35,263 nucleotides of DNA, taken from Bacteroidota bacterium (GTDB lineage: Bacteria > Bacteroidota > Bacteroidia > Bacteroidales > F082). The translations under genes and the position numbers were made by a program. Shown piece after piece: positions 24,217 through 25,286 of the stretch. Each line of letters begins with the position of its first letter. Position 1 is the stretch's first letter. Location: NCBI GenBank assembly GCA_003650425.1, contig QMPP01000008.1, forward strand, positions 1 to 35,263. Direction: 5' to 3'. The notes beneath the pieces were generated by a model. It was not told the DNA's origin. It worked only from the letters and a program-made list of their open reading frames with translations, and did no database searches.

Positions 24217-24675
24217 CTATTCCGGTTGATAGCTTTTAAATCGACCGTTTTTATAAAAGATAATGATCTTTTCAATTTCTAAATCCCCTTGATCAACCGA
24301 TCCGGGGGATTTTTTTTTACTTACGTTACTACTTTTCCCGACTGCCTTAGCATAAACAGCAGGCTCCTCCGATTGAGCCATGGGCAATACCCCCTCTTCA
24401 CTAATATCATCAACAGGTAAATTTAATACACCTTGTTTAACTTCTTCTTTTTTTAACGTACTGCTTCCATCCAGCATCATGCCCTTTCCCCATAAAAGCC
24501 AATCAGTATTAATTTCATTAAATCTATGCTTTAATTTCAACACAAAATCTAAACTGGGTTTATTCCTTCCCGACATGATGTGCGATAAAGCGGAACGCTG
24601 TATACCAATTTCGGTGGCAAATTGTGAGGCAGTTAGATGATAATGTGTTATTACTTTCTTAATCCTGTCGTTCAT
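24217..24675 (-). CDS. XRE-family HTH transcriptional regulator
   Basis: LTASQFATEIGIQRSALSHIMSGRNKPSLDFVLKLKHRFNEINTDWLLWGKG: XRE HTH; C-terminal IIIFYKNGRFKSYQPE. Confidence 0.88.
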   Translation of the reverse strand: MNDRIKKVITHYHLTASQFATEIGIQRSALSHIMSGRNKPSLDFVLKLKHRFNEINTDWLLWGKGMMLDGSSTLKKEEVKQGVLNLPVDDISEEGVLPMAQSEEPAVYAKAVGKSSNVSKKKSPGSVDQGDLEIEKIIIFYKNGRFKSYQPE

Positions 24676-24695
24676 TATATTTATGATTATGTTGA

Positions 24696-24703
24696 CAAAA
24701 GTA
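24696..24703 (-). promoter_or_regulatory. -7 box of the XRE gene
   Basis: CAAAAGTA on plus = TACTTTTG on minus, 20 nt upstream of the ATG at 24675. Confidence 0.45.
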
Positions 24704-24715
24704 ATAATTTAGATT

Positions 24716-24734
24716 AACAAATGTAACATTTGTT
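24716..24734. promoter_or_regulatory. Palindrome, putative XRE operator
   Basis: AACAAATG-TAA-CATTTGTT; flanked by GATT...AATC, extending the symmetry. Confidence 0.55.
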
Positions 24735-24749
24735 CAATCTATTTCTGTG

Positions 24750-25086
24750 TTACATTTGTAAACACGTCAATTCTTAAAGTAGAATCTATCATAAATGTCA
24801 TATTATGTTCTGTATTAATTATTTACGCTCTGCTATTTATCTATATTTCCTTCTTTAAGTTAGCAAATTCCACTTAAAGTATTTTCTAGGTTAGGTATTT
24901 AAATATACTGGTTCTGTGTAATATACATCTGCTTATTGTATATGGTTGTAACGATAGGTTGTTTATAATGATAGGCAGTACAAAATGTATATTATTACAA
25001 TTGTAAACGTGCCTGGTTAACAAGGTTTTTTAAATATCTAACCATAATAGACTATACATTTGTAAACTTAGTTACATTTGTATAAC
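24750..25086. repeat. Dispersed TTACAwTTGTAAAC-like motif copies
   Basis: TTACATTTGTAAAC (24750), TTACAATTGTAAAC (24995), TACATTTGTAAAC (25055), GTTACATTTGTATAAC (25071). Confidence 0.6.
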
Positions 25087-25194
25087 ACAAGAATATTTTA
25101 CTGATTTTCCTATTATAATTTTGATCTAAATAAACTGGTTATTTAACTTCCTATTCCTCCCTCCTATTTTTTATCAAATTATTTTTAATAAAAC

Positions 25195-25225
25195 TTGACA
25201 TGGCATACGGTTTGCTGTATATTTG
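25195..25225 (+). promoter_or_regulatory. sigma70-like promoter also compatible with TAnnTTTG
   Basis: TTGACA (25195-25200), N17, TATATT (25218-25223), read also as TATATTTG. Confidence 0.65.
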
Positions 25226-25226
25226 C

Positions 25227-25248
25227 ATTATGAACTTATGTTCATAAT
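25227..25248. promoter_or_regulatory. Inverted repeat operator at predicted transcription start
   Basis: ATTATGAAC-TTAT-GTTCATAAT, perfect 9-bp arms. Confidence 0.6.
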
Positions 25249-25286
25249 AGGTTAAAAGTAAAAACATTATTAAAAAGGAGGTTATT

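Follow-up and report, generated by a model that had tools for sequence, protein, structure and literature searches.

Autorepressors of the XRE/HTH_3 type, such as the 434 and P22 repressors and SinR, combine an HTH fold with palindromic operators, several of which lie over their own promoter. Other DNA-binding proteins belong to the terminus region. One of them is MatP of enterobacteria, with matS sites distributed across the terminus. Another is RTP of Bacillus subtilis, a winged-helix protein that regulates its own gene, rtp, by way of neighbouring Ter sites. The B. subtilis rtp gene lies near dif in the terminus region (PMC13220808). The open-licence papers that we searched contained nothing relevant on a terminus factor in Bacteroidetes or on an operator of the XRE type described below.

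We analyzed a window of 35,263 nt, that is, the whole stretch of DNA considered here. Its gap at 24676-25286 is flanked by an XRE-family gene (hereafter XRE) and, on the other side, by a plus-strand DUF5320 gene. When at most one mismatch was allowed, the motif TTACAWWTGTAA matched five times in the window. All five matches were in the gap, within a span of 370 nt (Table 1). The five palindromic sites that the preliminary description had reported were all present at the positions it gave. In 100 dinucleotide shuffles of the window the mean number of matches was 1.02 and the largest was 4. A degenerate sixth copy, TGACAAAAGTAA, overlaps the XRE -7 box, which reads CAAAAGTA on the plus strand. 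Therefore the array extends onto the promoter itself. Exact TTACAWTTGTAA occurred at six distinct places in the genome of the window, two of them in the gap, so lone exact sites are approximately at background and it is the clustering that constitutes the signal. The pair TACANNTGTA-N8-38-TACANNTGTA was found in this genome solely at the gap, and in three other genomes (G022, G291 and G164) it was confined to the XRE locus. In this genome the array stood out in its paired form, but not as a single 12-mer.

Table 1. Positions of the XRE gene and of the features of the gap in the window.
Feature	Position	Strand	Basis or remark
XRE-family (HTH_3) regulator gene, 152 aa; HTH, disordered linker and C-terminal beta hairpin	24217-24675	-	Pfam, model, orthologs
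Degenerate innermost operator	24693-24704	-	10/12 match at -29; over XRE -7 box (24696-24703)
Proximal operator, overlapping double palindrome AACAAATGTAACATTTGTT	24715-24734		TTACAWWTGTAA scan (match at 24715) and sequence
Proximal operator TTACATTTGTAA	24750-24761		TTACAWWTGTAA scan; many relatives have a site at this offset (-84 to -86)
AT-rich spacer with blocks TTAAAGTA (24774-24781, 24874-24881) and ACTGGTT (24907-24913)	24764-24990		Conserved; no RNA fold
Distal operator TTACAATTGTAA	24995-25006		TTACAWWTGTAA scan and comparison of upstream regions
Distal operator ATACATTTGTAA	25054-25065		TTACAWWTGTAA scan, upstream-region comparison and paired-site search
Distal operator TTACATTTGTAT	25072-25083		TTACAWWTGTAA scan, upstream-region comparison and paired-site search
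Weak copy (8/11) of G-rich block GGGTAGGAGGG	25159-25169	-	Beyond the distal cluster in relatives

The XRE protein matched the Pfam family HTH_3 (PF01381) with 33.1 bits (curated cut-off 23, E = 6e-08), while an NCBIfam search gave no family above its cut-off. In the predicted structure the HTH, a nearly invariant region, consists of five well predicted helices; it is followed by a disordered linker and, at the C terminus, by a beta hairpin. The nearest solved folds in a Foldseek search with this model were SinR, 434 Cro, DdrO and P22 c2. Since the best E value was only 0.007, this likeness speaks to the fold class only. By sequence, the solved relatives came to a single weak HTH match, 3bs3. 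The preliminary description had likened the density of sites to a phage-type switch. A lysogeny switch or prophage remnant would agree with the multi-operator layout and with an HTH that matches phage repressor families and folds. However, XRE is usually single-copy and occurs across the class, next to genes that vary. The ORF list of the window holds no phage genes, the neighbours are metabolic both here and in relatives, and no convergent cro-like gene lies in the gap. A phage origin is therefore scarcely credible, even though the DNA-binding domain still resembles phage repressors. XRE shares with 434, P22 and SinR the HTH fold, the palindromic operators and the placement of several of them over its own promoter. 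It differs from them in being a class-wide core gene with no known peptidase or phage partner, in the second operator cluster 200-350 nt away and in its linkage to dif.

Relatives of XRE were found in the window's family (127 of 149 genomes), in its order by a profile search (72 of 81) and in its class by a single-sequence query (57 of 147); among the class matches, the weaker-scoring ones probably include paralogs. When the upstream sequences of 30 members of the family were compared, operator-like sites were present beside nearly every XRE although the neighbour genes differ. In the three sets of loci scored, about 53/59, 72/74 and 16/20 loci (approximately 140/153 overall) had one or more sites that matched at 11/12 or better, against approximately 0.04 sites per region in shuffles done for the 59- and 20-locus sets. 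The motif therefore exceeds the AT-rich background, equality with which was to have told against the earlier proposal. Among the upstream regions scored, those with no clear operator sites include L013, L015, L096 and L102. In relatives the sites typically formed two clusters, a proximal one that lay on the promoter and a distal one beyond it by another 200-350 nt. The offsets recurred: in the window's family they were about -84, -50 and -27 together with -300 to -430, and in Flavobacterium -75/-39 together with -296/-272/-239. A TAnnTTTG box, which we take to be the Bacteroides -7 consensus, lay no more than 60 nt from the start in 124 of 136 loci, compared with 7 after shuffling. In one lineage (L101) the outer base was changed identically at all four sites (variant GCTACAWWTGTAGC), suggesting that the whole array has a single binder. 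Judged from these comparisons of sequence, the gene together with its array is kept across families and conserved through much of the phylum Bacteroidota. The neighbourhood of the gene offered two minor observations: pyrK- and pyrD-like genes lie downstream of XRE in the same direction in families f2 and f4 (L254, L257, L258), and ndk is convergent to XRE in the window and in G002.

The array most likely belongs to the adjoining XRE gene. We consider it likely that the gap controls an XRE-family autorepressor gene which has been inherited vertically, with a two-cluster and probably cooperative mode of control. XRE dimers would bind the TTACAWWTGTAA operators in both clusters. The proximal cluster would occupy the XRE promoter, its innermost copy over the -7 box, so that filling it would block the promoter and repress XRE. 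The distal cluster, approximately 250-350 nt beyond, would be contacted across the AT-rich spacer, and this would probably make repression cooperative or looped. We infer binding by XRE itself, repression and looping from the sites, their spacing, their overlap with the -7 box, their conservation and the near-uniqueness of the paired array. The autoregulation suggested in the preliminary description is indirectly well supported: operators overlap the -7 box of the gene's own promoter and are conserved across families, and the concerted operator change in L101 is in turn indirect support for XRE binding and repression. The conservation of two clusters at recurring spacing makes looping or cooperative binding between them plausible. 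In family f43 (L075-L077, L080, L085), when the sequences were read by eye, the distal operators seemed to overlap the promoter region of a divergent gene, and XRE might control two promoters there.

The spacer between the clusters could also be transcribed into a small RNA, as had been proposed earlier for the gap. The site at 24750 contains a -7-like TACATTTG facing the spacer, and the short conserved blocks would suit such an RNA. Yet the fold z-scores of the spacer (+0.67 and +0.57) gave no folding signal on either strand, and the consensus structures were empty, which is a weak test since the alignments were gappy. Further, the gap held no Rfam match and no terminator-like site. We regard a small RNA as very improbable; the conserved blocks may instead be bound by a further protein, either regulatory or DNA-bending. 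On the DUF5320 side of the gap, a separate palindrome, ATTATGAACTTATGTTCATAAT (25227-25248), lies just past a promoter-like TTGACA-17-TATATT (25195-25223) of the DUF5320 gene and is probably the operator of a different regulator.

We measured how far XRE lies from dif, the site at which the copies of the chromosome come apart. The distance was 0.03-133 kb in 52 of the 53 relatives that had both on one contig, a requirement that favours short distances in fragmented assemblies. Briefly, distances were calculated by hand from listed coordinates, and the best dif match was taken where there were several. The first set was picked for large contigs before dif was considered, and G270, with weak XRE matches, was omitted from it. 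In this set XRE and dif shared a contig in 25 genomes and were at most 133 kb apart in 24; the exception was G028 (274 kb). The second set was drawn independently afterwards as a test of the linkage. XRE was on the dif contig in 28 of its 37 dif-matched genomes, within 114 kb in all 28 and with a median of approximately 13 kb. The shortest distances were 28 bp (G367) and 105 bp (G346) past the XRE stop codon. Complete or megabase contigs agreed (G002, 40 kb; G239, 7 kb; G261, 98 kb; G164, 80 kb; G199, 6 kb; G332, 22 kb), and in G356, where the dif match was weak, the distance was 68 kb. In named genomes, dif-like sequences lay at a distance of a few kb from XRE. The pattern derived from the search was usually present once or a few times in a genome. 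In the window itself dif had no match within 3 mismatches.

Such linkage is the ground for a terminus-linked nucleoprotein element, in which array-bound XRE would take part, near dif, in organising the terminus, in segregation or in ending replication. We consider this possible but doubtful. The control gene purD was within 135 kb of dif in just 1 of 25 genomes, in controls that were run in genomes already selected for XRE-dif linkage. XRE lay near the plus-to-minus switch of GC skew in G002, G164 and G199 and roughly so in G239; the skew of G261 was too noisy and that of G019 uninformative. A position near dif, as in RTP/Ter or Tus/Ter fork traps, was found in relatives, and XRE resembles rtp as a DNA-binding protein gene near dif in the terminus region. 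In contrast to rtp/Ter, the XRE operators are symmetric and give no sign of polarity, and the skew switch is not at the array. In G002 and G164 it coincided with dif rather than with XRE, which does not favour polar fork arrest. As a possible terminus-region DNA-binding protein XRE is also comparable to MatP, but the XRE sites are confined to one locus. A matS-like spread over the terminus was looked for and rejected, as exact sites apart from the XRE locus were few and scattered. The locus was also considered as a replication origin; in G002 and G199 it lies near the plus-to-minus skew switch instead. Further points against a terminus function are that XRE-dif distances range over orders of magnitude and that there are exceptions to the linkage, namely G028 and genus g14. 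In the latter (L249, L251) the XRE locus neighbours an rRNA operon, with 1.6-2 kb between it and the start of a 16S rRNA gene, which is probably why many contigs break there.

The reading towards which we lean is that XRE is a plain autoregulated gene and that its closeness to dif is passive, an ancestral gyrA-dif-XRE neighbourhood having been kept by inversions symmetric about the terminus. In many Bacteroidota genomes (L254, L256, L259, L260, L261) gyrA is approximately 1.4 kb from dif, and the same holds in the genome of the window, on another contig (G000:C9:5-2116 and 3489). Further, in 3 of 12 genomes, again among those already selected for the linkage, the second control gene, ppdK, likewise lay no more than about 111 kb from dif. 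On the other hand, gyrA had left dif in at least 8 genomes in which XRE stayed closer, and the linkage of XRE to dif extends across dozens of families with different neighbours. Since the sites are not spread, the skew switch is at dif and XRE lies beside rRNA in g14, passive ancestral synteny is the likelier account of the position, and a functional terminus role is a serious alternative. It is a tentative suggestion that XRE and its array form a phylum-wide Bacteroidota terminus factor, a nucleoprotein complex dedicated to the region near dif and serving termination, terminus organisation or dimer resolution. Such a role would extend the autorepressor model and not exclude it, autoregulation being part of the design, and the model holds whether the closeness to dif is functional or passive. 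The interest of the locus is raised by the deep conservation of the element as a unit linked to dif. A very large bacterial group, with Bacteroidales of the gut and Flavobacteriia of the environment among its members, shares this chromosomal landmark together with the predicted regulator and its predicted operator. Should the linkage to dif prove functional, one gene deletion would make the ending of replication and the segregation of chromosomes testable in Bacteroidota.

A G-rich block, GGGTAGGAGGG, that we observed beyond the distal cluster was without exception on the sense strand of XRE; it was present at 9/11 or better in 8 of 24 loci and in none on the other strand. We considered it as KOPS, and the counts of GGGTAGG over four sampled genomes (18 leading, 10 lagging) were not convincing. 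In the sampled segments of G239, AGAAGGG occurred 17 times on the leading strand and 0 times on the lagging strand, and it is a candidate chromosome-orienting motif in that lineage.
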